From contig SVPH01000008.1 of the NCBI GenBank assembly GCA_015065965.1, positions 1 to 64,000 of the forward strand: DNA of 64,000 bases. Direction: 5' to 3'. A model generated the notes under the pieces. It was not told the origin of the DNA. It saw only the letters and a program-made list of their open reading frames with translations, and searched no databases. Both the position numbers and the translations under genes were made by a program. Numbering within the stretch: the stretch's first letter is position 1; every line of letters starts with the position of its first letter. Shown piece by piece: positions 3,476 to 56,690 of this stretch. This DNA comes from Oscillospiraceae bacterium. GTDB lineage: Bacteria; Bacillota; Clostridia; Oscillospirales; Acutalibacteraceae.

Positions 3476-3520
3476 AAAATACCCCTTTATCACTTTATGC
3501 CGTAAGTATAAAACACTTTC

Positions 3521-3558
3521 TTCAACCAAACTTCAACTGAAGTTCAACAATTGTTGAA
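3521..3558. promoter_or_regulatory. Helically phased TTCAAC repeat array upstream of ftsH
   Basis: TTCAAC occurs at 3521, 3532 and 3543, exactly 11 bases apart, and the inverse GTTGAA follows at 3553, giving the 16-base palindrome TTCAACAATTGTTGAA. One-turn spacing on one DNA face is what a regulator binding cooperatively would use. The same array with the same spacing is at 9049-9076 before the ftsH fragment. The ftsH -10 is probably TATACT, about 10 bases closer to the gene. The protein that would bind is unknown. Confidence 0.45.
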
Positions 3559-3594
3559 GTAACACACCATACTCTTCGATTTTGCGTTTTACTA

Positions 3595-3623
3595 TTGAGA
3601 AAACAGTTTCGGTAATGTATAAT
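3595..3623 (+). promoter_or_regulatory. Sigma-A type promoter, rightward
   Basis: TTGAGA at 3595-3600 and TATAAT at 3618-3623 are separated by 17 bases. It would start transcription near 3630, just ahead of the small open frame at 3646. The arrangement mirrors the MATE promoter near 9.1 kb, which also lies just beyond an ftsH upstream region. Confidence 0.5.
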
Positions 3624-3645
3624 GAAAACTCAAACAGTAAGAAAT

Positions 3646-3876
3646 ATGCCCGGCAGCGAAAGACCGCAGAAAAATCCCAATCAGCAAACTGAACCCGAAA
3701 CAACCGAATCTGATGAGGAAACAACAACTGTTCCGAACGCAGATGTTCAGACAACTCAACCGCAACCTCCCGAAATGAACGGAGAAATGCCAAACTTCAA
3801 CAGCGAATTTCCTGCACCTCCGCCAAACAATGTTAACTCTTTCGGCAACGCCAGTATGCTGTCGATGAGCAACTGA
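3646..3876 (+). CDS. Hypothetical Pro/Glu/Thr/Asn-rich small protein, possibly a gene remnant
   Basis: A 76-residue frame starting MPGSERPQ, low in hydrophobic residues and dominated by P, E, T, Q and N, with runs such as EETTTVP and PPEMNGEMPNF. No domain is recognisable. The composition recalls linker or tail regions of secreted carbohydrate-binding or CotH-like proteins of Clostridia, so it may be the surviving end of a larger gene. A good promoter lies 23 bases upstream, but no clear ribosome binding site is visible, and an ATG at 3622 overlaps the -10 box and cannot be used from that promoter. Confidence 0.3.
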   Translation: MPGSERPQKNPNQQTEPETTESDEETTTVPNADVQTTQPQPPEMNGEMPNFNSEFPAPPPNNVNSFGNASMLSMSN

Positions 3877-4017
3877 ACTTCAAAAAGGCTGTTGCATTTT
3901 GCACAGAACGAAAAGCAAAAGTAATAGAGAATTAAAAAAGATCAGATTATCAAAGACCCATTCTGTTGCTCACATTACAAAACCCATAGACTTAATCTCC
4001 ATATTTTCACATACTGT

Positions 4018-4047
4018 GAGGCAGGGAAAAACTCCCTGCCTCTTTGA
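4018..4047. terminator. Hairpin between convergent units
   Basis: A 10-base-pair perfect stem GAGGCAGGGA / TCCCTGCCTC with a 5-base loop, followed on the plus strand by TTTGATATT. It lies just past the stop of the minus-strand gene at 4050. Between 3877 and 4017 no gene or other feature could be recognised. Confidence 0.5.
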
Positions 4048-4049
4048 TA

Positions 4050-4466
4050 TTACTGTGCTTTTATCTGCCGGAATGTATCCTCCACCACTTCATCCATATC
4101 AAAAAACATTGTTCTGCTGTCCGCATCAAAATAACCGGTTACTTTATAACGCTGATCCGGTTTGCATTTTTCGGGTAGCATCGCTTTAATCGGTTCTACT
4201 AAATTTTTGTTTCCGGTGCTTAATGTATTGATTTGCTCAGCTCTCGGCTTTGAAAACGGAACAGGTTTACTTTCATTACTCTTACATGCACGAATAGCAA
4301 AAACTCTGTTTTCCGGAGAAATACAGTATTGCACATTTGCGGGATAATTCATATCCTCCAACACTTTCTTTGAAAAAGTGATTGTAGCACGATTAATATA
4401 CAAATCCGGAGTAGAGTTCACATTGATATCAATAAGTTCAAAGTTAATATTTTTAAAATCTTTCAT
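4050..4466 (-). CDS. Hypothetical protein downstream of serine recombinase
   Basis: A 138-residue soluble protein of unknown family. It has a mixed N-terminal half with NRATITFSKKVLEDM and a charged C-terminal half ending DMDEVVEDTFRQIKAQ. No catalytic motif or DNA-binding helix is obvious. It starts 24 bases after the stop of the large serine recombinase and is almost certainly in the same transcript (ATG preceded by AAAGGACAA). The pairing suggests an accessory role in recombination or element maintenance, but that is inference from context only. Confidence 0.6.
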   Translation of the reverse strand: MKDFKNINFELIDINVNSTPDLYINRATITFSKKVLEDMNYPANVQYCISPENRVFAIRACKSNESKPVPFSKPRAEQINTLSTGNKNLVEPIKAMLPEKCKPDQRYKVTGYFDADSRTMFFDMDEVVEDTFRQIKAQ

Positions 4467-4490
4467 AAATAAATTGTCCTTTCTTATTCT

Positions 4491-5696
4491 TTAAATTTCG
4501 TCCATTTCATTGATAGATTTAATAATGTTTAAAAACTGTTTACGCTCATCCGAAGTCCAAGCCGTATCAAGCAAAAAGTAGCCGCGAAGCACACCGGACT
4601 TAACCTTTGCCACAACAAACTTCTTTTCAAATGCTTTAGGCGGTTTTTTTCTATTCCACCTTCCTTCAGAAAGAAGCTTCTGAGTTTTATTCCAATCCTC
4701 TCGTTTTATAATAGCAGGATGGTTGTTTTCCCAATGCCATTGCGGCAGCACATCACGGTTTTTAATCGTTTTATGAGAAAGATAATCTTTGGAATATGTT
4801 TTTTGATACAACACATCACCACAATATTTTTCGTTTGAAAGAATGCTGCGAATAGTTCCGCTTTTCCAACACTCCATTCCTTTAGGTGAGCGTATTTTTT
4901 GTTCTGTGAGCGAGTCCGCAATCGCTTGCGGAGATGCTCCCTCAAGAAAACTATCGTAAATGTAACGAACAATTTCAGCTTCGGCAGGCTCTATTTTTAT
5001 TCTTCCCGAGTAATCACGGTAATATCCGATAGTGTTTTTCACTGTAAATTTATACAATCCCTCTTGCATCCGATAACGAATACCTTCTTTAATCGCAATG
5101 CTTTTCTGCTGACTTTCAAGTTCAGCAAGAGCAGAAAGAATTGAGATTATTAATTTATTTCCGCTATCGCTGGTATTGATACCTTCCGATTCAAAATTAA
5201 CAGCTACTGGTGGATTGAGGTTATCCAAAACACGCAAAGTGCTTAGTATATCAACAATGTTACGGCCAAATCGACTTATACTCTTGGTGAGAATCAAATC
5301 AATTTTTCCGGCTTTTGCATCCTCAATCATCTCCTGAAATCCAATTCGCTTATTCAGAGATGTGCCTGAAATGCCTTCATCTGTGTAGATTTTAACTAAA
5401 CTGTAATTCGGATTGCTCTCGATAACAGACTTAAAATGCTGTATCTGCATTTCAAAACTGCCTACCTGTGCTTCTTCTGCAGTACTGACACGGCAATAGG
5501 CAGCTACGCGGATTTGCGGAGAGTTTTCATAAGCATACAGTTTTTTCTCAGGCATTATAATTGTAACTTTGCGTTCACCGTTACGGTTTTTGGCAATCGT
5601 GTCTCTGATGCGTTTCTTTTCTTCTTCACGAAAAGTATTTTTTTCATTTTTCTGTCGTGCTTGCTCAATGCGTTCAGCATCTAATTTTTTCGCCAT
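4491..5696 (-). CDS. Large serine recombinase (resolvase/invertase family), no zinc ribbon
   Basis: A 401-residue site-specific recombinase. The N-terminal resolvase domain has the catalytic serine in AAYCRVST (Ser71), the SRFGRN arginine motif and the long E helix (LAELESQQKS). The recombinase domain follows (TIGYYRDY to EKYCGDVLYQK). Classical large serine integrases then carry a cysteine zinc ribbon and coiled coil; here there are no paired CXXC motifs and the chain ends in a short LRGYFLLDTAWTSDE module, so it is a short-form enzyme or a C-terminally reduced one. An unusual basic N-terminal extension of about 60 residues precedes the resolvase domain. The start codon directly abuts the stop of a 23-codon leader frame. 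Target sites could not be identified. Confidence 0.85.
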   Translation of the reverse strand: MAKKLDAERIEQARQKNEKNTFREEEKKRIRDTIAKNRNGERKVTIIMPEKKLYAYENSPQIRVAAYCRVSTAEEAQVGSFEMQIQHFKSVIESNPNYSLVKIYTDEGISGTSLNKRIGFQEMIEDAKAGKIDLILTKSISRFGRNIVDILSTLRVLDNLNPPVAVNFESEGINTSDSGNKLIISILSALAELESQQKSIAIKEGIRYRMQEGLYKFTVKNTIGYYRDYSGRIKIEPAEAEIVRYIYDSFLEGASPQAIADSLTEQKIRSPKGMECWKSGTIRSILSNEKYCGDVLYQKTYSKDYLSHKTIKNRDVLPQWHWENNHPAIIKREDWNKTQKLLSEGRWNRKKPPKAFEKKFVVAKVKSGVLRGYFLLDTAWTSDERKQFLNIIKSINEMDEI

Positions 5697-10758: not shown

Positions 10759-10787
10759 ATTTCAAACTTATGAAGCGGCGGTGTTTT

Positions 10788-12770
10788 ATGAAAAAAAGAA
10801 CAAAAGCATTTTTCGGAATAATCATATCAGTTGTTTTGGTTATTGTTTTGGGGATTACCGATATTGTTCCGCATTTCGCGGTTATTCCGGATATGGTTAA
10901 AGTCGGAATTGATTATATTTCATTAAATAAAAACAAAAACTCCGTTTCAACGTCTGAACTGAACGGCAAAATTCAAGACATATGCAGCGTCGTTGAACAT
11001 CCTTTTGTTCTTGCTGACAAAAAATGTTTTGAATCTGTTCGAACTGAAATAAAAAACAACTCTTTTACAACATACACAAAAGGACTCTGCTTATCGGTAA
11101 GCGACAATGCCGATGCACTGCTTGACACAGACATTTATCCTGTTCTTGAATATGTTCTTGACGAAGAGGACAGCATTCTGCCTGTTTCAAGAGAAGTAAT
11201 CAACAGAATGATCATACTAGGCTATGCATATCAGGTAACCGGCGAAATAAAATATGCCGACAGAGCCTGGAAAGAACTGGAAAAAGTCTGTTCTTATAAC
11301 GATTGGTGCACCTCACATTTTCTGGCTACCGCCGAAATGGCTCTTGCAGTTTCAATCGGATATGACTGGTTTTATGATCATCTTACCGAAGAGCAAAAAT
11401 TACTTCTTTCAGAAAAGACTTGGGAATATGCCATTGAACCCGCACTTAACGATAACCATTGGTTCACATGGTCAAAGAACAATTGGAACAGTATATGTTA
11501 CAGCGGAATAGGCATTGCATGCATGACATTTGCGGATAAAAACCCTGAAAAGGCTGCGGAATTCCTTGCAAAGTGCTATGAAAACATGCCCATTGCATTT
11601 GAAAATTTCACTCCCGACGGTGTTTACGCAGAAGGTCCCGGATACTGTCAGTCAGGAATGAATTCCATTGTTTATTTCATTGCATCATCAAGAAATTACT
11701 TTGGCACGGATTTCGGAATGTCAGAAATACCAGGCTTTAAAGAATTAGGGTATTTCCCGGTTTACATAACAACTCCTGCCGGTATGTTTAACTTTGGCGA
11801 TAACAAATCCGAGCAATGCTTTTCGCCTGTTCTTCACTGGTATGCAACCGAATATAACATTCCCCTTTTAAGTATCTACCAGACAAATGATAGTCCCGAT
11901 AAATTCACGGTAAACACATCCGAACACACAGAAAGGAACGGAAGCGGAAAAGAAGATGCGCTTTCATCTCTTTGGTACAACAGAGATTTTGCTAATGCAG
12001 ATGTAAAAATCAGCGACGAACCGCTTTGCCGTTACCTGAAATCCGATGTCGGTCAATCACTTGTTGTTATGAGAAGTGATTATTTCGATAAAGATGCGTC
12101 TTTTGCAGGAATAAAAGGCGGATACAATTTTATAAATCACGGTGATCTTGACATAGGTACGTTTGTATTTGATGCACTGGGTGAGCGATGGGCTGAGGAA
12201 TTGGGACCCGGCAGTTATGATGCCCCAAACTATTTTCTCAACACTCCCGCAGGCGGAAGATGGAAAAATTACTGCAAACGCGCAGAAGGACAAAACACAC
12301 TTGTGATAAATCCGAACGCAACTCTGGATGACCAATATGTTCTTGCAGAATGCAATTTTACATTTTTTGAAGAAACCGACAACGGCAGCAAAGCCATACT
12401 TGATATGACTGATGCATACAGAATGAACGGTGCAACCGATGTTAAAAGAGAGTTTGAGTTTTATAACAACTCTTGCTTAAAAATAACTGACACTATTAAA
12501 TGCATTGTTCCGAGTGAAATTTATTGGTTTATGCACACAAAATCTAATATTAATATTTCAGATAACGGAAAAACAGCAATTCTCACCATTAACGAAAAAA
12601 AGATGAAAGTAACCCTTTTGGCTGACGGTGAATTTTCCGTAATGAAAGCCGAGGCTTTAAAAGGAAAATATGAGTATGATGGGGACTATTCGGATTTAAA
12701 GAAGTTGACAGTAAAACTCAACAATGTTAAAACAGCATTGATATCTGTTAACTTTGAACCTGTTGAATAA
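10788..12770 (+). CDS. Heparinase II/III family lyase-like protein, membrane anchored
   Basis: A 660-residue protein with an N-terminal hydrophobic segment (FFGIIISVVLVIVLGITDIV) that acts as an uncleaved anchor or signal, so the enzyme is extracellular. The middle is an alpha-toroid domain with NNWNSICYSGIG and DGVYAEGPGYCQSG, which holds the likely catalytic tyrosine. The C-terminal beta region has NHGDLDIGTF with the expected histidine and the typical RAEGQNTLVINP. Such proteins cleave uronic acid polysaccharides (heparin, alginate, related), but substrate is unclear. The second ATG is chosen because GCGGCGGTG precedes it; an ATG six codons upstream lacks a site. It is convergent with the catabolic operon. 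Confidence 0.8.
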   Translation: MKKRTKAFFGIIISVVLVIVLGITDIVPHFAVIPDMVKVGIDYISLNKNKNSVSTSELNGKIQDICSVVEHPFVLADKKCFESVRTEIKNNSFTTYTKGLCLSVSDNADALLDTDIYPVLEYVLDEEDSILPVSREVINRMIILGYAYQVTGEIKYADRAWKELEKVCSYNDWCTSHFLATAEMALAVSIGYDWFYDHLTEEQKLLLSEKTWEYAIEPALNDNHWFTWSKNNWNSICYSGIGIACMTFADKNPEKAAEFLAKCYENMPIAFENFTPDGVYAEGPGYCQSGMNSIVYFIASSRNYFGTDFGMSEIPGFKELGYFPVYITTPAGMFNFGDNKSEQCFSPVLHWYATEYNIPLLSIYQTNDSPDKFTVNTSEHTERNGSGKEDALSSLWYNRDFANADVKISDEPLCRYLKSDVGQSLVVMRSDYFDKDASFAGIKGGYNFINHGDLDIGTFVFDALGERWAEELGPGSYDAPNYFLNTPAGGRWKNYCKRAEGQNTLVINPNATLDDQYVLAECNFTFFEETDNGSKAILDMTDAYRMNGATDVKREFEFYNNSCLKITDTIKCIVPSEIYWFMHTKSNINISDNGKTAILTINEKKMKVTLLADGEFSVMKAEALKGKYEYDGDYSDLKKLTVKLNNVKTALISVNFEPVE

Positions 12771-12772
12771 GA

Positions 12773-12815
12773 AAAACCGTACACTATCAGTTAAATGATA
12801 ATGTACGGTTTTTTT
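12773..12815. terminator. Bidirectional terminator between convergent genes
   Basis: AAACCGTACA / TGTACGGTTT stem extended by an inner TATCA / TGATA pairing, with T runs on both sides. It separates the heparinase-like gene (plus) from the esterase at the end of the catabolic operon (minus). Confidence 0.8.
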
Positions 12816-13854
12816 ATTTGCTCAAAAAATCAAAGGATTTTTTCCCGTTTACGGAATGCTTGCCGTTAAAAATATCAATATGCAGTTTGTCCTCAGCATC
12901 AACCAAAGAATATATTCTTTTAATGTTTTTATGTGCGGATTTACTTGCTTCTATCGGAAAAAGTTTATCTTTAATTCCGGATTCTATCAGCAGTTCTCTC
13001 GGCGCAAGTGACGAAGCAAAATCATATATTTCACCGATTTCCAGAATTCCCGGAATATAATTATCCGGACAATGCCAAAGCGAAAGTATACTGTCACGGA
13101 AAGTATTGACATAACCGCTTATCACAATTTTTTTAAACCGTTCTTCTATAACGGAAGCATACAAAGCAGTAAGTCCTCCTCCTGAAATTCCCATACATGA
13201 TAATTTTTCATTGTTTACGCCCTTAATTTTCGAGAGAATTTCCGCACACGCAAGAGCCTGATAAACACGCATTGAAGCAACCGTCAGACCATAGGGCAAT
13301 AAATGATGCGAGAGTTCATCGCAGGAACTGATATAGAAAGGCTTGATTAAATCCTTTTGAAGTCTTGCTTCGCCAAACCCGAAGAGTTCGGGTGCAATAA
13401 CAACACAGCCGCGCTTTGCAAGTTCAACAGCAAAATTATTTTGATAATTATCAAAATAATTGAAATGCTTTTTGTTTCCTTTTTTTGATATGTTGAGAAT
13501 CTGCCTTACCCCATAGCCGTGACCGCAAAGAGCAACAACTCCGGGAACGGCTTTTGTTATGTTTGCAGGTGTAAGAATATAAAAAAGCATATTAAGGTTC
13601 TTACAGATTTCAGTTGAACATTTCTGCAAGGTATATTCGGGATAAACTAACGGTTCCCCAAGATAAACTATTTCAAAATCCGTTGTTTTTTGGGGAATTT
13701 TATCAAGCCCCAGCACAGCCTCAGTTTGCTCCTTTATTTTTTTGCCAACCTGTAATGCCGTTTGTGCATCAAGAACATTTTCATAAGGTTTTGAAGCAAT
13801 TTCGGCATAGACGCTATGCATAAATTTATCGGGGGAATATCTGCTTGTTTTCAT
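12814..13854 (-). CDS. Alpha/beta hydrolase, acetyl xylan esterase-like
   Basis: A 346-residue alpha/beta hydrolase of the large esterase type with a long N-terminal helical part. The nucleophile elbow is GISGGG (Ser about 225), the acid is probably Asp in ESGIKDKLFP, and the histidine is in NGKHSVNG. HGYGVRQ forms the oxyanion-hole region. No signal peptide, so it works in the cytoplasm, removing acyl groups from an imported sugar or glycoside. The ATG at 13854 follows AGGGGTG; a GTG two codons upstream has no site. It is the last gene of the seven-gene operon, 17 bases after the GH3 gene. Confidence 0.78.
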   Translation of the reverse strand: MKTSRYSPDKFMHSVYAEIASKPYENVLDAQTALQVGKKIKEQTEAVLGLDKIPQKTTDFEIVYLGEPLVYPEYTLQKCSTEICKNLNMLFYILTPANITKAVPGVVALCGHGYGVRQILNISKKGNKKHFNYFDNYQNNFAVELAKRGCVVIAPELFGFGEARLQKDLIKPFYISSCDELSHHLLPYGLTVASMRVYQALACAEILSKIKGVNNEKLSCMGISGGGLTALYASVIEERFKKIVISGYVNTFRDSILSLWHCPDNYIPGILEIGEIYDFASSLAPRELLIESGIKDKLFPIEASKSAHKNIKRIYSLVDAEDKLHIDIFNGKHSVNGKKSFDFLSK

Positions 13855-13870
13855 AAACACACCCCTGAAG

Positions 13871-15940
13871 TTAAAATTTTATTTCACCGATTTGTTTGGC
13901 GTTTTTGCTGCTTGTACCAATCAGAACACAATATGCTTCATCTGTCTTCCAATTGCCGTTTTCAGGGTCATAAAACTTAATTTCATCAACCGGTATTTCA
14001 ATTTTTAATGTTACCGATTCCCCTGCATTAACAGTAACGCGTTTAAAACCTTTGAGAAGTTTTACGGGTCTGTCTTCATTTTGATTTTTACTTGAGATAT
14101 ACACCTGAACAACCTCGTCGCCGCAGACGTCACCAATGTTTTTTGCCGTTGCGGTAACCGTTATTTTATTTTCTTCTTTTGCCGCCGAACAATCATAAAT
14201 CTCAAAATCAGTATAGGAAAGTCCGAAGCCGAAGGAATATTGCGGTTCAATTCCTTTTTTGTCAAAAAGAGTGTATCCGTGATAATATCCGTAATCAATC
14301 TCAAGTTTTTCATCCGATATATGCAAGAACTCAGGATAATCGGTATCATTATAAGCAATTGTAAACGGCAATTTACCGCCGGGATTAACATCACCGCTCA
14401 AAACATCCGCAAGAGCATTGCCGCCTTCAAGCCCGCTGTAGAATGAGAAAAGAATCGCATCAGCCATATCGGTCCATTCCTTTATCACATATGCGCTTCC
14501 GCCCATAATATTGACAACAAGTTTTTTGCCTGTTTTTGACAATGCTTTTATCATTTCAACATCTTCGGCAGGTATTCTTAAATCTGCTCTGTCACCGCCA
14601 GAACCTTTTGGCTTTTTCTTAATATTGCCGAGATTAACAAGGAACTCTCCTTCCTGAAGCCAGTCACTGCCGACACAAACAACTATGTATTCTGCGTTTT
14701 CCGCCGTTTCAAGTGCTTTTTTCGCATCGCAGCCGTTATAAACACAAACGTTTTTATCGCCGAAACGGTTTTTGATACCTTCGTAAGCAGTTACGGTGTA
14801 TGGACTGTAAACATTGCTGCTGCCGTGGTCACCGACATTAACTTTGTTTGCATATCTTCCCACAACTGCGATTTTTTTGCCGCCTGATATCGGCAATGTT
14901 TTGCCTTCATTTTTCAGTAAAACAGTTCCTTTTGCGGCAGCCTTTCTTGCAAGTTCTGTATGTTCTTTTGAAAGAACAACGGATTTAGGTTGCTTTTTAT
15001 AATAGGGCAGAGTTTTTATGAGAGCCTTAATTATTCTTCCTGCGCTGAGGTTAATATCATCCTCTGTCAATTCGCCTTTTTTCAGTTTATGATTAAGAAC
15101 AGCATAGCGGAAATAATAAGGCATTTCCATATCCATCCCTGATTTTACGCTTCTTACTGCATCATAAATACCGTAAAAGAAATCAGAAAGAGCAAAGCCC
15201 TCAAATCCCCACTTATCCCTTAAAATATCGGTAAGAAGTTCTTTACTTTCACAACAATATGTTCCGTTGACCTTATTATAAGCACCCATTACGGACATCG
15301 CTCCCGCATCAATACATTTCTTAAAATGCGGAAGATAAACCTCATGAAGAGTTCTTTCATCTGCTTTTGCATCAACTTTAAACCGCAAGTCCTCGATGCT
15401 GTTAAGCGCATAATGCTTAGGACAGGCTATGATTCCGTTTTCCTGCATGGCTTTCGTAAGAGCAACTCCCATTTTACCGAGCAAAAACGGATCTTCACCG
15501 TAAGTTTCCTGCGCTCTGCCCCACATCGGATTACGAAGAAGATTTATACAGACACCTGCATAAAGATTTGCGCCCAATGCGCTTGCCTCTTTAGCCATTG
15601 TTTTGCCTATTTCATATTCCAATTCATCATCAAATGTTGCACCCCGAAGCATGGAAACAGGGAAACAGGTACATTTGCCCATAACAATACCTCTCGGTCC
15701 GTCCGTAAAAAGCACAGGAGGAATACCGAGCCTTTTACAGCCGCCTGCAGGATAGGCTTCACCGTTATAATATCTGCCCTTTGTAAGTGTATTTTTTATT
15801 GTTACACCCATAGCGTGCCCTTGCATTAAACGAACTTTTTCTTTTAATGTCATTTCATCAAGAAGTTTTTCCGTAACCTCATCGAGAGTTTTTCTTACGG
15901 GATTTTTCTTATATATCTCCATTGCCTGATTAAAATTCAT
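13871..15940 (-). CDS. Glycoside hydrolase family 3 (beta-glucosidase-like)
   Basis: A 689-residue intracellular GH3 enzyme that removes beta-linked terminal sugars. The TIM-barrel domain has FTDGPRGI, the KHYALNS lysine-histidine pair and the nucleophile aspartate in ALSDFF (about residue 250). The alpha/beta sandwich follows (GTVLLKNEG, YSFGFGLSYTDFEI), and a fibronectin III-like C-terminus (GDEVVQVYIS, LLKGFKRV). All expected blocks are present; it lacks a signal peptide. Start ATG follows TAGGAGGCAATAAT. Within an operon of oxidoreductases it would free an aglycone or sugar for the downstream steps. Confidence 0.92.
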   Translation of the reverse strand: MNFNQAMEIYKKNPVRKTLDEVTEKLLDEMTLKEKVRLMQGHAMGVTIKNTLTKGRYYNGEAYPAGGCKRLGIPPVLFTDGPRGIVMGKCTCFPVSMLRGATFDDELEYEIGKTMAKEASALGANLYAGVCINLLRNPMWGRAQETYGEDPFLLGKMGVALTKAMQENGIIACPKHYALNSIEDLRFKVDAKADERTLHEVYLPHFKKCIDAGAMSVMGAYNKVNGTYCCESKELLTDILRDKWGFEGFALSDFFYGIYDAVRSVKSGMDMEMPYYFRYAVLNHKLKKGELTEDDINLSAGRIIKALIKTLPYYKKQPKSVVLSKEHTELARKAAAKGTVLLKNEGKTLPISGGKKIAVVGRYANKVNVGDHGSSNVYSPYTVTAYEGIKNRFGDKNVCVYNGCDAKKALETAENAEYIVVCVGSDWLQEGEFLVNLGNIKKKPKGSGGDRADLRIPAEDVEMIKALSKTGKKLVVNIMGGSAYVIKEWTDMADAILFSFYSGLEGGNALADVLSGDVNPGGKLPFTIAYNDTDYPEFLHISDEKLEIDYGYYHGYTLFDKKGIEPQYSFGFGLSYTDFEIYDCSAAKEENKITVTATAKNIGDVCGDEVVQVYISSKNQNEDRPVKLLKGFKRVTVNAGESVTLKIEIPVDEIKFYDPENGNWKTDEAYCVLIGTSSKNAKQIGEIKF

Positions 15941-15951
15941 ATTATTGCCTC

Positions 15952-16956
15952 CTATGCCATAGTTTTCAGCATTTCCTGCGTAACCTCATATTTTAAAGGC
16001 TGACCTGTTTTGTAGTTGACGAGTTGTTCAATCATATAGTCCGCCATTCGCGCTGTTTCATTGCCGAGACTGCCTGCAATATGGGGTGTTATTATTACAT
16101 TCGGGCACCAGAAAAGCGGACTGACATACGGAAACACTTCATTCTTCAACACATCAACAACTGCAGTTCTTGACGGGTGTGCAATCATACTTCTTGCAAG
16201 AGCAAACTCATCCACCTGATCTCCCCTGCCCGTATTAATAAATGTGCTGTGTTTTTTCATAAGCCTGAACAATTTTGCATTGAATATATTTTTCAGTTCT
16301 TTTTTATTTGCAAGGTGGTTGCTTATTACATCACAATCTTTAAAAATCGTTTCCAAACTGCAAAGAGTGACATTCAATTTTTCTGCCTTTTCTTGGCTTA
16401 CAAACGGGTCATAAGCCATAACTTCAACATCATATTCCTTAAGTTTTTCGGCAACTGATGAACCTATTGCGCCAAGACCGACAAGTCCGATTTTTGCACC
16501 GTATGCACCGACACAGTTCTGCGTATGCATAAAAGAATACGGCAGAAGCGTCTTATATCTTTTTGCGCCCTGAAAATAACCCTTTAATGCCAAAACAATT
16601 TGTGAAACGGCATATTCCGTTACAGGCACTCCGTTCGCGGCAAAAGCGCTGAACACCTTTATTCCGCAATTCAGAAAAGGCTCGGCAAAATACTGAACCG
16701 TACCCGCACTGTAAAAAAGAGCCTTTAAGTTAGGCATATATTCCTTTATCTCTTCTTCAGTGAATTTAATCATTCCCCACGTTGCAAACGCAACCTCACA
16801 CTGAGCAAGAAATTCTTTATGTTCATCTATATTGCTTTTATCAATTCTTTCAGAAACATCGCCGTATTCCCTTATTTTTTTTAGAACGTTTTCGGAATAT
16901 ACCTTTGAAAATTTGCTTTCGTTTTCACCGAATAATGCAATTTTTATTTTAACCAC
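15952..16956 (-). CDS. D-isomer specific 2-hydroxyacid dehydrogenase family protein
   Basis: A 334-residue NAD(P)-dependent oxidoreductase. The cofactor fold has GLVGLGAIGSSVAEKL, the catalytic arginine is in NTGRGDQV, and the histidine is in PNVIITPHIAGSLGNE. The family interconverts 2-keto acids and D-2-hydroxy acids, such as glyoxylate/hydroxypyruvate or phosphoglycerate-like compounds. The frame begins at a GTG just after the preceding gene's stop; GAGGTGG overlaps that GTG, so initiation is unusual and perhaps reinitiation. Its place in the operon suggests it handles a 2-keto or 2-hydroxy acid from the sugar moiety. Confidence 0.82.
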   Translation of the reverse strand: MVKIKIALFGENESKFSKVYSENVLKKIREYGDVSERIDKSNIDEHKEFLAQCEVAFATWGMIKFTEEEIKEYMPNLKALFYSAGTVQYFAEPFLNCGIKVFSAFAANGVPVTEYAVSQIVLALKGYFQGAKRYKTLLPYSFMHTQNCVGAYGAKIGLVGLGAIGSSVAEKLKEYDVEVMAYDPFVSQEKAEKLNVTLCSLETIFKDCDVISNHLANKKELKNIFNAKLFRLMKKHSTFINTGRGDQVDEFALARSMIAHPSRTAVVDVLKNEVFPYVSPLFWCPNVIITPHIAGSLGNETARMADYMIEQLVNYKTGQPLKYEVTQEMLKTMA

Positions 16957-16957
16957 C

Positions 16958-17701
16958 TCAATAACTTTTCAGTTTCTTGATATCTTTTAAAAAGTGCTTT
17001 TCTTTTGAGCCTTTTGTGAACTCAACAAGGATAACGCCGTCAAAATTCATTTCCGAAAGTTTTTTAAGAAGCCTGTCAAGATAATGCTTATCTTTCTTTC
17101 TGAATCTCTGTTCTCTTGCCAGATCACGGTAACTCACATGAACATTTTCTATACTATCAAAGGTCCTTTCAATTCTGTCAATATCATAATCAAATCTGAA
17201 ATACCTTGACTGAAAATATGTTTTGAAATTATCCTCTCTCAGTTCGCTTTTAATTTTCAAAAAAGCATCCGTGTTGTTGTTATATGTGTTATCGTGACAT
17301 TCCGGGCATACCAAAAGATTATATTTTTGCGCAACAGAGCAAATACTTTTTAAATCCTCAAGAATACGTATGTATTCCTCCTGAGTTGTTTTCTCGCTGT
17401 CTTTTTCTCCGAGCCACACCCTTACGGACGATGCGTTCATTATTTTTGCAATTCTGCATATTTCTTCCCATTTGCTTTTATCTGCACAGCCTACCCTGTA
17501 ATAACTTCCGTAAGAACAGATTTTTATGCCCTCATTGTCACAGACGGATTTAACTATACGGGCCTCTTCCGTATTTGTTACATGGATATCGCCGCCCCAT
17601 TCAATATAGTTAACACCTGCTTTTTTGGCGATTTCAACCACTTTGGCGGCGCTCATTTTTCTGAATGTAACGCTGCAAAGGCCGAGTTTAAAACTGTTCA
17701 T
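16958..17701 (-). CDS. Sugar phosphate isomerase/epimerase-like TIM barrel protein
   Basis: A 247-residue xylose isomerase-like TIM barrel (AP endonuclease 2 superfamily). Features are the N-terminal LGLCSVTFR strand, NYIEWGGDIHV, the metal-ligand-like glutamate and histidine in LLVCPECHDN, and the terminal GVILVEF with a further glutamate. Such proteins isomerise, epimerise or eliminate on sugars, and some relatives open keto-glycosides. The ATG at 17701 follows GAGGTGCAGA; longer starts have no site. It begins just after the FAD oxidoreductase stop and is translationally linked to it. Exact substrate unknown. Confidence 0.8.
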   Translation of the reverse strand: MNSFKLGLCSVTFRKMSAAKVVEIAKKAGVNYIEWGGDIHVTNTEEARIVKSVCDNEGIKICSYGSYYRVGCADKSKWEEICRIAKIMNASSVRVWLGEKDSEKTTQEEYIRILEDLKSICSVAQKYNLLVCPECHDNTYNNNTDAFLKIKSELREDNFKTYFQSRYFRFDYDIDRIERTFDSIENVHVSYRDLAREQRFRKKDKHYLDRLLKKLSEMNFDGVILVEFTKGSKEKHFLKDIKKLKSY

Positions 17702-17712
17702 TCTGCACCTCA

Positions 17713-19485
17713 TTATATACGGCTTAAGTATTTTTCAAATGGCTCGTCCGTTTTGGGAACAGGCTTTGTTTCAACAAAACTCACCTTTCCGTTATCGGTT
17801 ATTGTAAGATATTTTCGGTATTCGGAATTTTCCGGAACTGGTTCACCTTTTTCAAAGTAAACCGCTCCGCCGCGGCTGCCGGTTAAAGACATTTCGCTGA
17901 TTATTGTTTCAAGAAGTGCCTTTGCACTTATAAGCATATCCCTATCATAAAAATAATCGCCTAAAGATTTATGCCTTAAAGGATAGTTTGAAATCTTATC
18001 ATCAATTTCATCAAGCAAATCAACGCACTCTTCCTTACTGCGGAGAAACGCTGCACATCTGCTCATCTTTGCTTTAATATTTGAATAATCAATCTCGTTA
18101 TCAATTATAAAACCTTTATATTTTTCAAAGCAAAAGGCAGATGTCTCAAAGTCACAAGTAAGTGCTGCTTTTTCTTTGATATGCCTTGCACACAGCAATC
18201 CGCTAACCTGAGTGTCGTTAAGCGCCGTTCCGCCCGGACGAGCAAGCCCGAAAGTACCTGCGGCTTCGCCAATGACATAAAGACCTTCCACATCGGTTTC
18301 ACAATTATTATCGGTATAAACACCGCCGTTATTGTGTTGCGCACAAACAGCAATCCTCAGTTTTTCTTTTGAAATATCAATATTTTGATTTAAATAAACG
18401 TCAATCGCTTTTGGATTCAATTTCCTGAGTCTTTCAATCGGAGTGTTACCCGTTGCATTGTTCTTCTCCAGATATAACCTTGCTTCTTCATCAAGATTTT
18501 CAAAACAAAAACCGCTCGGATTTACTGTATAATCAAGACAGATTTTTCTGCCTTTTTTCATTTCATTGTGAACGGCTATATCAATCCTTGAAGACTTTTC
18601 CGCTCTGTCAAAACTGAACGGCCACTGATAACCTTTCAAAAAAATATTGTTACACATTTCTTCCGCAGTTTCAAAATAACAATTCAAAAAATCGTATTCA
18701 TTGCCGCTTTCATCAACACTCACAAACCTCGGAATAACCTGCATAAAACTGCCTGAAACATTCCATCTGAAATCAACAGATGCCATACCGTATTGCCACT
18801 GTGAAAAATTGCAAAGACGCACTCCCGATTCAATCAAAACGCCTGTCATGCCGTGCTGAGATTCAGGATAAACCGAATTCTCATAAATACAAGCCGGTGC
18901 ACCTGTGGCACAAATAATATTTTTAGCGTAGAAAACCTCAAAATTGTTTGTTTTGGTGTTTAATGCAGCAATGCCAATTGCTCTGCTGCCTTCTTTCAGG
19001 ATTTCAACAACCTGTCTGTTATCAAAGAGAGGCGTATCATTCTTATCAAGCACAACTTTTTCAAGTTTTTCAGTCATAACTTTTGAAGTTAAAGGACCTA
19101 TCGAAGTTGCTCTTACGGTATTGTCGTGGTCAGTTTTGTAACCCGGAAACCCTCCGAATTCGTCCTGAGGAAAACCCACGCCGTAATCACACAGCCTTAA
19201 AAAACACTTTACACTGTTAACCGATTGAAGATACATCTTCTCACCGTCGCAGCATCCTGCAGAAAAAATATCCTGCGCCATCTTATAAGGGCTGTCATGT
19301 GTGAATCCGTCCATAGACATTTTATAATACGTTTGCTTATCGCTGCCTGTGTTTCGTGATGTACCGCTTAGCCTGTTTTCTGCTATAATTGCAATATCGG
19401 TCACATTCTCTTTATAAAGCCAGTCGGCAACACTGTATGCAGCCGCTCCGCTTCCGATTATTATTGCGTCATATATTTTTCTCAT
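17713..19485 (-). CDS. FAD-dependent oxidoreductase, fumarate reductase/succinate dehydrogenase flavoprotein type
   Basis: A 590-residue soluble flavoprotein. The FAD-binding Rossmann motif is IIGSGAAAYSVADWL near the N-terminus; GTSRNTGSDKQTYYK is a subfamily block, and the C-terminal FAD motif is GLYVIGEAAGTFGLARPGGT. A capping domain lies between. There is no signal peptide, Tat motif or heme-binding motif. Family members add or remove hydrogen across C-C bonds in organic acids, steroids or polyphenols. The ATG at 19485 overlaps the SDR stop as ATGA. Together with the neighbouring old yellow enzyme and SDR it forms a reductive trio like that known for daidzein-to-equol conversion, though subfamilies differ. 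Confidence 0.82.
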   Translation of the reverse strand: MRKIYDAIIIGSGAAAYSVADWLYKENVTDIAIIAENRLSGTSRNTGSDKQTYYKMSMDGFTHDSPYKMAQDIFSAGCCDGEKMYLQSVNSVKCFLRLCDYGVGFPQDEFGGFPGYKTDHDNTVRATSIGPLTSKVMTEKLEKVVLDKNDTPLFDNRQVVEILKEGSRAIGIAALNTKTNNFEVFYAKNIICATGAPACIYENSVYPESQHGMTGVLIESGVRLCNFSQWQYGMASVDFRWNVSGSFMQVIPRFVSVDESGNEYDFLNCYFETAEEMCNNIFLKGYQWPFSFDRAEKSSRIDIAVHNEMKKGRKICLDYTVNPSGFCFENLDEEARLYLEKNNATGNTPIERLRKLNPKAIDVYLNQNIDISKEKLRIAVCAQHNNGGVYTDNNCETDVEGLYVIGEAAGTFGLARPGGTALNDTQVSGLLCARHIKEKAALTCDFETSAFCFEKYKGFIIDNEIDYSNIKAKMSRCAAFLRSKEECVDLLDEIDDKISNYPLRHKSLGDYFYDRDMLISAKALLETIISEMSLTGSRGGAVYFEKGEPVPENSEYRKYLTITDNGKVSFVETKPVPKTDEPFEKYLSRI

Positions 19486-20219
19486 AAGCATCTCACATTA
19501 AATCCGCCGTCACAGTCAATAACCGTACCGGTGCAAAAATCAAAATCGCCTTTTGCAATTGATGCAACACATTTTCCGATATCTTCAGGTTTACCCATTC
19601 TTTTAATTGGTGTAAGCCCTTCATTTATCATATTTTCATATTTTTCTTTAACCTTCGCAGTCATATCCGTTTCAATGATGCCCGGTCTTATCTCGATAAC
19701 ACTTATACCGTATTCCGCAAGACGAGCCGCATAGAGTTTGGTAATCATTGAAATACCGGCTTTGGAGATACAGTATTCACCTCTGTTCAGTGAGGCTGTA
19801 TATGCGGACATCGACGAAATATTTACAATTCTTGATTTACCGTTTTCTTTAAGCAACGGAACAAATTTCTGCGTAACAAAAAAAGTTCCTTTTAAATTTA
19901 TATCCGTTACATAATCAAAATCTTCAGGCATTAATTCCAGAATATCTTTTCTCTCTTTCGGAGCAATGCCTGCATTATTGACAAGCAAAGAAATTTTGCC
20001 GAATTTTTCCTTAACATAAAAAACAAGTTTTTCAATATCATTGATATTGGAAATATCGCAAGGAACAAAGTACACTCTGTCACAATATTCATTTTTTAAT
20101 CTTTTAATCTCTGTGCCTTCGTTTCTTGCAGAAAGGACAACGGTAAAACCGTTTTTCAAAAGTTCTTTGGCTATTCCAAGACCTATTCCTCTGCTTCCGC
20201 CTGTTATTACTGCAGTCAT
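19482..20219 (-). CDS. Short-chain dehydrogenase/reductase (SDR)
   Basis: A 245-residue classical SDR. The NAD(P)-binding motif is ITGGSRGIGLG, NNAG is at about residue 88, and the catalytic set is the serine in NISSMSAY with YCISK. The C-terminal region ends FCTGTVIDCDGGF as usual. It would oxidise a hydroxyl or reduce a ketone. ArgSer after the second strand (SARNEG) suggests NADP preference, which is inference. The start follows AAGGAGCGGATAAA, 12 bases after the old yellow enzyme gene. Confidence 0.9.
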   Translation of the reverse strand: MTAVITGGSRGIGLGIAKELLKNGFTVVLSARNEGTEIKRLKNEYCDRVYFVPCDISNINDIEKLVFYVKEKFGKISLLVNNAGIAPKERKDILELMPEDFDYVTDINLKGTFFVTQKFVPLLKENGKSRIVNISSMSAYTASLNRGEYCISKAGISMITKLYAARLAEYGISVIEIRPGIIETDMTAKVKEKYENMINEGLTPIKRMGKPEDIGKCVASIAKGDFDFCTGTVIDCDGGFNVRCL

Positions 20220-20231
20220 TTTATCCGCTCC

Positions 20232-21452
20232 TTATTTACACGAAACAAATTTTTGATAATAGGGCATATACACCTCTGAGTCCCTTATCGGACAGCCTGC
20301 AACCGTTCCGGCACGCATAAGTTGAGAACACTTACTGCATTTGAGGCAAAGTTTGCTTTTATTCAACACACCGTATTTAAGATAATCTTTGTAAAAACCA
20401 GGATAAGCAAAGGTCATCCTTCCGAATCCGGCAAAATCCGCAACTCCTTCATTAATAATTTTTTCCGCATGTTTCATTGCGTTTTCGCCAGGATATGTTA
20501 AACCTGAAGCAATAAAATAAACATCCTCAAACTCAGCCTTCAGTTCTTTGGTAACATCGTAAATTCTTTTAATTCCGATTTCACCGTCTTCAGGTGCATT
20601 TATACACGGACGGTTGATATGCGGGATCAGGTAGGGATTTCCCAACGTAAGATTTATCAGTCTTATCCCTTTTTCATAAAGAGATTTTATGATTAATTTT
20701 GTTTCGGACAGGTCAATATTATTATTTTCATCCACACCGTAACCGTAAGGATACGGAAAACAGTCGCAGGCATTAAGCCTGGTTGTAACAAACATATCTT
20801 CACTTATCGCTTTTTTTGCTGCATCAATGCATTCAAAATAAAGCCTTGTTCTGTTTTCAAGACTGCCGCCGTAAATTCCTTCACGCTCTTTTGCACTCAA
20901 AAACTCATTGAACAGATATCCGTGGCAGCACTTAACATCAATTCCGTCAAATCCGACTTCTTGTGCAAGTTTTGCTGCCTCATAATATTTTTTCGGCAGA
21001 GTTTTGCAATAATCATCCGAAGCAATTACATACGGCTGATTTTCTTTGCCGATTTCCCAATGAGAATTGCGGTAGGCAACTATAGGTTTGGGAGTACCGT
21101 CAGGCTTGCTGAATCTTCCGCTGTGTGTAAGTTGAACAATTATTATCGGTTCAAACCCTGTTTTCTCTAACGCAGTTTTTTTAATATCATCAACAACAGA
21201 TTTAAATGACTCCTTTGTATTTTCGTTCAGAAACAACTGCCTTGGATTTGCTCTGCCTTCAGCCGAAACAGCAGTCGCTTCAAACCATATTATTCCTGCT
21301 CCGCTCTCGGCAAACCTCATATATCTTCTGCGGGTAAGTTCATCAACCGCTCCGTCAAAAGTGCCGTCACACCCTTCCATAGGATGAAATACAATTCGGT
21401 TTTTTATTGTTTTGTTATGTATTGTTAACGGAGATTCCAAAACAGTTTTCAT
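20232..21452 (-). CDS. NADH:flavin oxidoreductase, old yellow enzyme family with Cys cluster
   Basis: A 406-residue FMN TIM-barrel enzyme. It has the N-terminal NRIVFHPMEG, the flavin/substrate block VQLTHSGRFS, GFDGIDVKCCHGYLFNEFLS and the typical YGGSLENRTR. Close to the C-terminus CLKCSKCSQLMRAGTVAGC supplies four cysteines like the 4Fe-4S ligand set of 2,4-dienoyl-CoA reductase and BaiCD/daidzein reductase types, but the FAD/NAD domain of those larger proteins is missing. It probably reduces an activated C=C bond. First gene of the seven-gene operon; ATG follows AGAGGAGTGC, with a consensus promoter 36 bases upstream. Confidence 0.88.
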   Translation of the reverse strand: MKTVLESPLTIHNKTIKNRIVFHPMEGCDGTFDGAVDELTRRRYMRFAESGAGIIWFEATAVSAEGRANPRQLFLNENTKESFKSVVDDIKKTALEKTGFEPIIIVQLTHSGRFSKPDGTPKPIVAYRNSHWEIGKENQPYVIASDDYCKTLPKKYYEAAKLAQEVGFDGIDVKCCHGYLFNEFLSAKEREGIYGGSLENRTRLYFECIDAAKKAISEDMFVTTRLNACDCFPYPYGYGVDENNNIDLSETKLIIKSLYEKGIRLINLTLGNPYLIPHINRPCINAPEDGEIGIKRIYDVTKELKAEFEDVYFIASGLTYPGENAMKHAEKIINEGVADFAGFGRMTFAYPGFYKDYLKYGVLNKSKLCLKCSKCSQLMRAGTVAGCPIRDSEVYMPYYQKFVSCK

Positions 21453-21487: not shown

Positions 21488-21516
21488 ATTATAACAGATA
21501 AATATTTCATAGGCAA
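21488..21516 (-). promoter_or_regulatory. Promoter of the seven-gene catabolic operon
   Basis: On the minus strand TTGCCT (21511-21516) and TATAAT (21488-21493) are exactly 17 bases apart, reading toward the old yellow enzyme gene. No clear operator palindrome was seen beside it, and no regulator gene is adjacent. Confidence 0.65.
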
Positions 21517-21625
21517 CATTTTTATTATAACAGAATTCAGATATATGACATTCAGATTTACTTCTCTCAAATCACCGTAAAAAAGAGAAAACAATTTAAA
21601 TTCAGTTCTTTTTCTGAAAACAAAT

Positions 21626-21804: not shown

Positions 21805-24264
21805 ATGAAAAAAAATAAAAGTATCATCGAAAGTGCTGTCACCACGGTGTTTCTGGGACTGATGATTTATGCAGCATACTCTCTGTGGTACATATTCTAC
21901 GGAAAAGAAAGCGGTTCAGACATTCATCTGTATACCGTTCTTGCAGGTTCGGCTCTGGGTTGGTTCTTACTCCTCTTCACTCAGACCATATTTAAAAATG
22001 CAGGTTGGATAAAAAAACTTGTTGCGTTTTTAGCCGGTAATGCTTTGTTTCAAGGCTTGATTTGGGGCATCAACGCAAAAATCAACCCGGATTGTATGAA
22101 TAACGATGATGTTGTTATTAATACTTTTACCGTTACCTTCGTTTTATCCGCAATTCTCCTTCTTATCACTTATATTTTAAGAGTAAAAAACAAACATAAA
22201 ATATTAAACATTATTTTAGCGATTGTTTATTTTGTTATTTCATGCGGTGGATTATGTGTGATTAACGAGGAAAACATCAAGGCGCTTTCATACAAAAAGG
22301 ATATTCACTTTGACACCATGAACGCAGATGAAATGAACATCACCGATTCAGAAAAAACTCTTTGCGAAGAATGGTTTGAAGATAATTTCTTTGCTGAAAA
22401 CTGTGAATACCCCTTTACTTTCAAAGTTGACGGGGAAGAATTCAATCCTGCCGACTGGGAAAAAAGTTTTGAATATACTCCGGATATTTACTCCGGAAAC
22501 GTTTATAAAGGCGGCAAAACAGAATATCTTGTTCTGTCAAACGAATCAAAAGGTCTTAGTGTAACGGTTGAATTAACCCATTTTGCAGATAATGCAACAT
22601 GCCAATGGACTGTTTACATCAAAAATACAGGAACAACCGATTCCGAAATTATAAGCGATTTCTATGCGCTTGATTCATCTTTTGCAACCGGTAAAGCAGA
22701 CCTTTATTATTCAATGGGAAGCGACACTGCCGCAAGCGACTTTTCGCTTATTAAAAAGGATTTATCCTTTATTGAAAAAAAGTTTTCAGGCGCTGACGGC
22801 AAACCTACCGAAACATATCTGCCCTATTTTAATATCAGCGGAGAAAATCACGGCATGATTCTCGGCATCGGCTGGACCGGTCAGTGGGCAGCAGGTTTAT
22901 CTGAATCAAACGGAGCAACGGATATATCCGTTAAACAGGAACATTTTGAAGCATACCTGCTTGCAGGCGAAGAGGTCCGTTCACCGCTTGTTTCAATCAG
23001 TTTTTATGAAAACACTAATCCCCTTAAGGGCTTTAACCTTTTCAGAAAGTGGATTATGGACAGCGTATATCCCGAAAATGTAACTCAAAACAGTTACACT
23101 GTTATGGAAATTGCAGGCCCTATGTCAACAAAAACTTCCGATGAGATCATTGAAATTCTTGACGGCATTGATGACTCTGTTTATGCTCAGACCGATGCTT
23201 TCTGGATGGATGCCGGCTGGTATAAATATAACTCGGGCTGGCACGACGGTGTCGGCAACTGGACGGTTGACACATCAAGATATGATAACGGTATATCAGA
23301 ATTATCGGGATATGCCGCTAAGAAAGGCCTCGGCCATGTTCTTTGGTATGAACCAGAAAGAGTTTATCCCGGCACAGAGTTCCATAATATCGGTTCTCAG
23401 CATGAAGAATGGCTGATATACGGCGACAGCGATAACATCATGTGGAATCTTGCAAATGAAGATGCCTTTAAATTTTATTGCGAATATCTGCTCAATTCAA
23501 TGAAGGAAAACGGTATTACTGTTTACCGTCAGGATTTCAACTTTGCACCTATGGAATATTGGCAGAGGGCTGATAATGAATTCTACGGCGGAAGAACAGG
23601 CATATGCGAAAATCATTATATAACAAATCTTTACAGATATCTTGATTATCTTTGTGAAAATATTGAAGGACTTATAATCGACAACTGCGCTTCGGGCGGT
23701 AAGAGGCTCGACCTTGAAATGACCTATCGCAGCATTGCTTTTTGGAGAAGCGATTATAACTGTTCACTTCATACGGATTTCTTTGAGGCAACGCAATCAC
23801 ATACATACGGAATTTCATTCTGGCTTCCTATAACAGGTGCTAATCTTTACATGTTGGACGAATATTCAGCAAGAAGCGCTATAATGCCCTTGATGCTCAT
23901 GGATTTTTACTCAAACACTCACGCCGATTTCAGTTTCCATAAAGAGCAGCGAGAAATGATGGCAGGCAACTACTATCCTCTCGATTTCGGAAGTTTTGAC
24001 AAGGATAAGATGCATGCAATGCAGTATTCGTCCTATGATGCACTTTCAGGAACCGCACTCATATACAAAAGAGCGGATGTTAAAGACAGCGAATATACCG
24101 TTAAATTAAACGGACTTGTTCCGTCTGCAGCCTACAGTGTTTATGACACAGACTATCCTGAAACGGTTTATAACCTCACCGGCGAAGAACTTATGAACAG
24201 CGGTATAACACTTAATCTTCCTGAAGGTGAAAAAGCAATTATACTTATGTATAACGCTCAATAA
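21805..24264 (+). CDS. GH36 alpha-galactosidase-like enzyme with five-helix membrane anchor
   Basis: An 819-residue protein. Residues 1-155 contain five hydrophobic helices (about 12-31, 43-61, 68-87, 105-124, 132-152), which leaves the rest outside the cell if the N-terminus is inside. The remainder is a GH36/GH-D enzyme: beta-sandwich domain, then barrel motifs WMDAGWY (about 466), GVGNWTVD, LWYEPERV, the nucleophile aspartate in VYRQDFNF (about 575), CASGGKRLDLE and the acid/base aspartate in WRSDYN (about 650). GH36 enzymes are usually soluble; a polytopic anchor is unusual. Alpha-galactosidase or alpha-N-acetylgalactosaminidase activity is likely but the sugar is not certain. It is divergent from the catabolic operon. 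Confidence 0.87.
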   Translation: MKKNKSIIESAVTTVFLGLMIYAAYSLWYIFYGKESGSDIHLYTVLAGSALGWFLLLFTQTIFKNAGWIKKLVAFLAGNALFQGLIWGINAKINPDCMNNDDVVINTFTVTFVLSAILLLITYILRVKNKHKILNIILAIVYFVISCGGLCVINEENIKALSYKKDIHFDTMNADEMNITDSEKTLCEEWFEDNFFAENCEYPFTFKVDGEEFNPADWEKSFEYTPDIYSGNVYKGGKTEYLVLSNESKGLSVTVELTHFADNATCQWTVYIKNTGTTDSEIISDFYALDSSFATGKADLYYSMGSDTAASDFSLIKKDLSFIEKKFSGADGKPTETYLPYFNISGENHGMILGIGWTGQWAAGLSESNGATDISVKQEHFEAYLLAGEEVRSPLVSISFYENTNPLKGFNLFRKWIMDSVYPENVTQNSYTVMEIAGPMSTKTSDEIIEILDGIDDSVYAQTDAFWMDAGWYKYNSGWHDGVGNWTVDTSRYDNGISELSGYAAKKGLGHVLWYEPERVYPGTEFHNIGSQHEEWLIYGDSDNIMWNLANEDAFKFYCEYLLNSMKENGITVYRQDFNFAPMEYWQRADNEFYGGRTGICENHYITNLYRYLDYLCENIEGLIIDNCASGGKRLDLEMTYRSIAFWRSDYNCSLHTDFFEATQSHTYGISFWLPITGANLYMLDEYSARSAIMPLMLMDFYSNTHADFSFHKEQREMMAGNYYPLDFGSFDKDKMHAMQYSSYDALSGTALIYKRADVKDSEYTVKLNGLVPSAAYSVYDTDYPETVYNLTGEELMNSGITLNLPEGEKAIILMYNAQ

Positions 24265-54927: not shown

Positions 54928-54938
54928 TTGAGTAGTAG

Positions 54939-54965
54939 GGGCGACCCGTTAAGGTCGCCCTTTTT
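54939..54965 (+). terminator. Intra-operon terminator after the binding protein gene
   Basis: GGGCGACC / GGTCGCCC stem with a 6-base loop and five T, 26 bases before the first permease ATG. It would give much more binding protein than permease, a common arrangement in CUT1 operons. Confidence 0.8.
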
Positions 54966-54990
54966 CACTCAAACCCTTGGAGTTGATTTT

Positions 54991-55845
54991 ATGCAAAAAA
55001 CGCTCAAAAAATATTTTCCCGTATTCCTTCTGCCAACACTGATTTCATTTGCAATATCGTTTATAATTCCGTTCGTTATGGGCGTTTACCTTTCATTCAC
55101 GGAATTCAAAACAGTTAATGACAGTAAATGGGTTGGTCTTGAAAACTACATCAGAATATTTACAAGCGACAAAACATTTATGAACTCACTGTGGCTGACA
55201 GTTAAATTCACAGTTGTTTCTGTTATAACAATCAATATCATCGCTTTTGCGATTGCTCTGCTGCTTACAAAAGGGCTTAAAGGAACAAACCTTTTCAGAA
55301 CAGTATTTTTCATGCCAAACCTTATAGGCGGTATTGTGCTCGGTCATATATGGAGCCTTATCATAAACGGTGTTCTCGGCTATTTCGGCGTCGATATCAC
55401 ATACAAGCCCGAATACGGTTTTTGGGGTCTTGTTATACTGATGAACTGGCAATTGATAGGTTATATGATGATAATTTATATTGCAGGCATTCAAAACATT
55501 CCCGACTATCTGCACGAAGCCGCTGCAATCGACGGCGCATCACCCGTTCAGACTCTCTTTCATATTACAATCCCCATGGTCATGCCTTCGGTTACAATTT
55601 GCACATTTTTAACACTCACAAATTCTTTTAAACTGTTTGATCAGAACCTTGCCCTTAACGGAAAATCATCTGACACTGCACTGCTTGCTCTGGATATATT
55701 CAAAACTTTCTATGACCATACCGGGCTTAAACTTGCGCAGTGGCACGGAACAGGTCAGGCAAAAGCGGTTATATTCTTTATTATTGTTGCGATTATCGCC
55801 TTCATTCAACTCCGCGCAACAAATCAAAAGGAGGTTGAGCATTAA
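54991..55845 (+). CDS. Sugar ABC transporter permease, MalF type
   Basis: A 284-residue permease with six helices. The EAA loop reads EAAAIDGASPVQTLFHITIPMV, which contacts the ATPase. N-terminal PVFLLPTLISFAISF and FTEFKTVNDSKWVGLENY are typical. The ATG at 54991 follows TTGGAG; the frame is open further upstream through the terminator but lacks a site. It pairs with the MalG-type permease whose start overlaps its stop. Confidence 0.9.
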   Translation: MQKTLKKYFPVFLLPTLISFAISFIIPFVMGVYLSFTEFKTVNDSKWVGLENYIRIFTSDKTFMNSLWLTVKFTVVSVITINIIAFAIALLLTKGLKGTNLFRTVFFMPNLIGGIVLGHIWSLIINGVLGYFGVDITYKPEYGFWGLVILMNWQLIGYMMIIYIAGIQNIPDYLHEAAAIDGASPVQTLFHITIPMVMPSVTICTFLTLTNSFKLFDQNLALNGKSSDTALLALDIFKTFYDHTGLKLAQWHGTGQAKAVIFFIIVAIIAFIQLRATNQKEVEH

Positions 55846-56687: not shown

Positions 56688-56690
56688 ACA

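Follow-up and report, generated by a model that had tools for sequence, protein, structure and literature searches.

A conserved trio of old yellow enzyme, short-chain dehydrogenase and fumarate-reductase-like flavoprotein in an Oscillospiraceae operon, and its possible part in sugar-acid catabolism

Among described bacterial systems, the equol operon, encoding the daidzein, dihydrodaidzein and tetrahydrodaidzein reductases, is one of the closest counterparts to the gene cluster considered here. In two reviews, the Slackia equol genes are given as an NADH:flavin oxidoreductase, a short-chain dehydrogenase/reductase (SDR) and a succinate-dehydrogenase-like protein (PMC4381290), and daidzein reductase as a protein of 644 aa with two GXGXXG motifs and a CX2CX3CX12C motif (PMC12784375). 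Tetrahydrodaidzein reductase works without NAD(P)H according to one (PMC12784375), while in the other the activity of strain Julong 732 requires NADH (PMC4381290). The locus under study lies in a stretch of 64,000 nucleotides (the window) from an Oscillospiraceae bacterium, contig SVPH01000008.1, where seven minus-strand genes follow one another at intervals of -10 to +12 nt. They encode, in order, an old yellow enzyme (OYE), an SDR, a FrdA-like flavoprotein, a TIM barrel, a 2-hydroxyacid dehydrogenase, a GH3 glycosidase and an alpha/beta-hydrolase. A preliminary description of this DNA had announced an operon of overlapping or touching genes in this order, with four cysteines at the C-terminus of the OYE, and on both points it holds. 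Its remark that the first three enzymes are of the kinds used in the conversion of daidzein to equol likewise agrees, at superfamily level, with the reviews (PMC4381290; PMC12784375). We argue here that these three enzymes are the conserved unit, and that they most likely feed an unusual sugar acid, and not isoflavone-like plant compounds, into central metabolism.

20232..21452, minus strand: OYE-family FMN enzyme, 406 aa, with CX2CX2CX11C at the C-terminus and without the NAD(P)H/FAD second half
19482..20219, minus strand: SDR, 245 aa, with TGGSRGIG and Tyr149/Lys153
17713..19491, minus strand: FrdA/NadB-type flavoprotein, 592 aa, with the motifs GTSRNTGSDKQTYYK, QHNNGG and RPGGxALN
16958..17713, minus strand: xylose-isomerase-like TIM barrel, closest solved structure AsbF
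15952..16956, minus strand: D-2-hydroxyacid dehydrogenase with Arg244/Glu273/His292
13871..15940, minus strand: GH3 glycosidase, best NCBIfam model below cut-off
12814..13860, minus strand: alpha/beta-hydrolase (Abhydrolase_7), putative esterase
10770..12770, plus strand: heparinase II/III-like lyase related to PL35 chondroitinase (E 4.5e-59), N-terminus hydrophobic by eye
21488..21551, minus strand: two tentative promoter-like sites upstream of the operon, weakly evidenced

The conserved unit, OYE, SDR and flavoprotein, is narrower than the seven-gene operon. Six peptide patterns from the window's flavoprotein were used in a genome scan that gave 188 confirmed loci. Of the best 80 (which do not represent independent lineages), 71 have an SDR and 63 an OYE no more than 3 kb from the flavoprotein. 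The corresponding counts are 38 for the TIM barrel, 28 for the dehydrogenase, 11 for GH3 and 10 for the hydrolase, and at none of the 80 loci do all seven genes fall within 8 kb. The co-occurrence of the seven across genomes, which the preliminary description had proposed as a check, is thus not seen; of the scattering in relatives that it had named as telling against it, the four accessory genes, which come and go, give an instance, whereas the core three stay together. The OYE is absent within 6 kb at 17 loci, three of which have one within 10 kb (66/80 in total); several of the OYE-less loci end at a contig edge, and four (L094, L100, L102 and L107) have about 10 kb on both sides and still none. 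An SDR is absent within 6 kb at 9/80 loci. A control of 169 kb yielded no OYE match and only three SDR matches (28-30%). Between the three proteins, identity distances show correlations of r 0.92-0.95, values in which shared descent is still included.

Carriers include Clostridia, Lokiarchaeota, KSB1, Acidobacteriota, Bacteroidetes, Elusimicrobiota and one Sphaerochaetaceae bacterium. Within the window's family the flavoprotein is found in 62 of 300 genomes at E 1e-30, its own included, and across the phylum 44 of 398 genomes match at E 1e-80. Half of these 44 (22, own genome included) do so at E <1e-200, the other 22 only at 3e-97 to 2e-84, which is the range of a sister family. The genus of L100 has it in 8/17 genomes and the Bacteroidota in 1/296, namely the starting genome; viral contigs gave no match in the scan. 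Among the literature matches listed, taken as titles and abstract openings, there was no description of such a cluster or its substrate, and the three-enzyme core is an uncharacterised set common to gut Clostridia, other bacterial phyla and Lokiarchaeota.

The flavoprotein matches the FrdA-type fold of the complex II flavoprotein over its whole length, at 18% identity to FrdA and L-aspartate oxidase, and scores below the NCBIfam cut-offs of nadB (100 vs 452.75 bits) and sdhA_frdA (63.9 vs 567.3 bits); it belongs to a distinct FrdA-like family. Arg418 is present in 79/79 aligned rows, and FrdA His355 aligns with Gln385, which His386 follows. Unlike FrdA, the protein has no FrdB partner, the operon containing no Fe-S partner subunit. 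The OYE, at 114 bits against a cut-off of 27 for PF00724, is likewise a distinct subfamily. It shares the barrel and the second catalytic His with the YqjM/TOYE class, but its alignment places Glu26 and Lys174 where ordinary OYEs carry Cys (Cys26) and the first His, and it has the additional four-Cys tail; Glu26, Lys174 and His177 are invariant, Lys174 in 65/65 OYE rows. Membership of the BaiCD family (96.7 bits, cut-off 825) and of the long-form bilirubin reductases (79.3 bits, cut-off 750) was rejected for the OYE, which also falls far below the cut-off of the mycofactocin OYE models in the NCBIfam profile search. Judged from their residues, the active sites of the flavoprotein (FrdA-type fold, Arg418) and of the OYE (Lys174) would suit a carboxylate substrate.

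The sister flavoproteins, 30-31% identical to the nearest core flavoprotein (L164:7983-9815, L165:7905-9695), sit in the same kind of cluster, as if replacing it: around the first lie an OYE, an alcohol dehydrogenase, an SDR, cupin, LacI and TRAP genes and an IlvD/Edd-like gene, and around the second a PcRGLX-type protein.

As to the remaining operon products, the SDR scores 302 bits with NF009386, a model whose cut-off is 250 and whose family bears the name 3-ketoacyl-ACP reductase, and the D-2-hydroxyacid dehydrogenase keeps Arg244/Glu273/His292 in 32/32 aligned rows, with a gap in one further row. Structural comparison gives AsbF, a probable 3-dehydroshikimate dehydratase, as the closest solved structure to the TIM barrel among the families compared. 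The specificity of the GH3 enzyme is not pinned by profile, its top NCBIfam model reaching 390 bits against a cut-off of 1300.

The neighbours of distant core copies suggest a function. They were counted at 104 loci (88 far, 16 close) and in 20 hand-chosen control stretches (257 kb, some only 1.5-6 kb each) from flavoprotein-positive genomes; the count leaves aside L164, L165, L170 and L173-L176 (sister-family, duplicate or near-duplicate) and the short-flank loci L001-L035 and L116-L145. Genes resembling the kinase of 2-keto-3-deoxygluconate (KDG), at 80 bits or more, occur at six far loci: in L075, L107 and L146 the flavoprotein is directly followed by one (that of L146 being no intact frame in the list of open reading frames), in L150 and L156 one comes after an aldolase, and in L098 one lies about 7 kb away. 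Matches to 2-keto-3-deoxy-6-phosphogluconate (KDPG) aldolase over the aldolase part were obtained at four (L075, L098, where the aldolase too lies at some distance, L150 and L156), curated models having been applied to the KDG genes of L075 and L098. The gene order is OYE-SDR-FAD-KdgK-KdgA in L075 and OYE-Gfo/Idh-Gfo/Idh-dehydrogenase (DHDH)-SDR-FAD-KdgA-KdgK in L150. IlvD/Edd genes were counted at 3, TRAP at 9, LacI at 13 and cupin at 7 of the 88 far loci; IlvD/Edd together with alcohol dehydrogenases adjoins the core copies of L153 and L157, and TRAP, LacI and cupin genes those of L094, L100 and L171. The 20 control stretches contained no KdgK, KdgA, IlvD/Edd, TRAP, LacI, cupin or UxuA match. 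Among the 80 loci kept from the scan, relatives of the PL35-like lyase lie within 6 kb of the flavoprotein at 6/16 close and 1/64 far ones.

Two further observations concern these loci. In L156 the gene row is headed (2330-4513) by an enzyme of the lacto-N-biose-phosphorylase family (TIGR02336, 1004 bits), a hint that the substrate may be a galactosyl sugar or sugar acid. A protein of 120 aa encoded close to the core in L153 (350-709) and L154 (2097-2459) matches, at 45%, the C-terminal extension of the L075 KDPG aldolase (L075:13030-13986) and is a possible further pathway part; because the matches cover this extension and not the aldolase part, L153 and L154 were rejected as KdgA loci.

The reading that we prefer, and to which we give somewhat less than an even chance, is that of a sugar-acid catabolic operon built on the OYE-SDR-FrdA-like core, by which a carboxylated sugar is freed and then turned to KDG. 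The PL35-like lyase, GH3 and hydrolase would release the sugar, a hexuronate, an aldonate or a substituted or unsaturated form of these, from plant or host polymers. The flavoprotein would carry out alpha,beta-(de)hydrogenation adjacent to the carboxylate, the SDR and the 2-hydroxyacid dehydrogenase would interconvert hydroxyl and keto groups, the OYE would reduce a conjugated C=C bond or reductively remove a hydroxyl, and the TIM barrel would isomerise or dehydrate. The KDG so formed would pass to KDG kinase and KDPG aldolase. We infer the substrate, the direction and the order of steps. As in the hexuronate (Uxa/Uxu) and DHU (KduI/KduD) routes, the exit in some core-bearing genomes is via KDG kinase and KDPG aldolase, and lyase and pectin genes lie near the core in others; unlike those routes, the core has no isomerase or dehydratase of their families and uses flavoenzymes.

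A rather improbable elaboration is that the flavoprotein and the OYE are mutual redox partners, the customary partner being absent in both cases (FrdB in the one, the NADPH/FAD half in the other). The flavoprotein would then oxidise the sugar acid to a 2-keto form and electrons passing via the four-Cys cluster of the OYE would remove the neighbouring hydroxyl, a net dehydration of the sugar acid to KDG without a known sugar-acid dehydratase. If tetrahydrodaidzein reductase is indeed NAD(P)H-independent, it would be a useful parallel for a partnerless FrdA-like enzyme.

At the level of whole genomes, two in which core genes lie beside KdgA and KdgK (G521, 99% complete, and G702, completeness not given) show no UxaC, UxuA, PF20629 or PF04962 match, so that the source of KDG there should be the pathway of the core or else a dehydratase outside the search. 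KdgA is found in 14/15 flavoprotein-positive against 5/12 negative genomes of the same family (one-sided p 0.006) and, within the genus, in 3/3 positive against 0/2 negative genomes. In the window's own genome UxuA adjoins KdgA (by Pfam), followed by a KDG-kinase-like gene (by eye). A PF04962 match on its contig C50 was rejected as KduI, being by eye an IolB beside IolE- and IolD-like genes, and PF04962 counts therefore do not measure KduI. The same genome has, by eye, an IolE-IolD-IolB inositol set (L179:6937-10520).

Several points weigh against a KDG route. KdgK (6/88) and the aldolase (4/88) are found at a minority of far loci and at 0/16 close ones, and neither UxaC (1/88 far loci vs 1/20 controls) nor UxuA (0/88) is enriched beside the flavoprotein. 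UxaC (14/15 vs 7/12, p 0.043) and UxuA over its cut-off (12/15 vs 5/12, p 0.049) also track the flavoprotein among the family genomes, and KdgA may thus do no more than flag genomes with many sugar-acid genes; the co-occurrence is a general link to sugar-acid use and no proof of one step. The negative genomes were moreover the top of a list, a non-random choice, the control stretches were hand-picked, and the search of G521 and G702 did not cover IlvD/Edd or enolase-type dehydratases. In the window's genome KdgA is on another contig, and UxaC and UxuA are both present, so that plain glucuronate does not call for the core there, and the core was rejected as a simple UxaC/UxuA replacement in that genome. 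The stretch read at L156 has no SDR. Finally, CoA-transferase and enoyl-CoA hydratase genes lie beside copies in L100, L110 and L148, and the flavoprotein of L172 is accompanied by a CoA-transferase, its frame being joined, by eye, to a hydratase; these CoA-linked copies do not fit a simple KDG route.

The CoA-linked copies, together with the AsbF-like barrel, make an acid of the cyclitol or hydroaromatic kind, quinate or shikimate for example, a serious, if on balance unlikely, rival substrate, and the main one: the hydrolase would split chlorogenate-type esters, the TIM barrel dehydrate a keto-cyclitol, and the flavoprotein act on the ring beside the carboxylate. We consider it less probable still that the core is confined to lyase-generated unsaturated uronates (DHU/DEH type) and stands in for KduI/KduD. 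A PL35-like lyase does adjoin the operon, 22/80 loci have a heparinase-like gene (cluster c5, represented in the Pfam scan by one member) no more than 2 kb from the flavoprotein, and a PL2-type gene occurs near the L154 copy and a PcRGLX-type gene near the L165 sister flavoprotein. The SDR could serve as a KduD-type step, but reaches only 146 bits against the KduD cut-off of 339; the known two-step route has no place for an OYE or a flavoprotein; and the core copy of L149 lies in a locus whose identified genes are GH28-type, UxaC and a UxaA-type dehydratase, with no lyase among the genes scanned (some were unscanned).

The preliminary description had foreseen deglycosylation and deacylation followed by reduction of a plant-type compound or an unusual keto sugar, and our reading lies nearer the latter option. 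In favour of a compound of isoflavone or bile-acid type, reduced step by step, the Slackia equol genes form a similar cluster and encode members of these three superfamilies (PMC4381290), and the record titles of carriers include herbivore hindgut genomes. The SDR also fits the description of the equol SDR (about 246 aa, TGXXXGXG, YXXXK), a weak point since most SDRs share it, and the flavoprotein fits the fumarate-reductase/succinate-dehydrogenase-like third enzyme at superfamily level only. The OYE, however, is two thirds as long as daidzein reductase, has no GXGXXG/NADPH motif and spaces its cysteines differently, on which ground membership of the equol system was rejected. Its catalytic positions and its distance from the BaiCD, bilirubin and mycofactocin models point the same way, the core is also present in genomes titled sediment or termite symbiont, and the neighbours of distant copies, unlike those of the equol operon, include sugar-acid genes (KDG kinase, KDPG aldolase, IlvD/Edd, TRAP, LacI and pectin genes). 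A polyphenol or bile-acid role appears improbable.

Elsewhere in the window, a GH36-like protein (21805-24264, plus strand; Melibiase 73 bits; N-terminus hydrophobic by eye) is divergent from the operon. By eye, a serine recombinase (4491-5696, minus strand) is possibly a mobile-element remnant, and the far end holds a sugar ABC transporter set (53563-57785, plus strand) and a large GH38-like protein (58633-61725, minus strand).

The core presents three redox enzymes that co-vary across many phyla and for which no substrate was found. If, as in our preferred reading, it makes KDG, acidic sugars would have one more way into central metabolism, in herbivore hindguts as in other habitats, and, should the two flavoenzymes be redox partners, this would be a new redox-coupled entry to the Entner-Doudoroff end, from gut Clostridia to Lokiarchaeota. 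KDG formation by the core would also assign a role to numerous genes whose present names go no further than flavin oxidoreductase, SDR or fumarate reductase.

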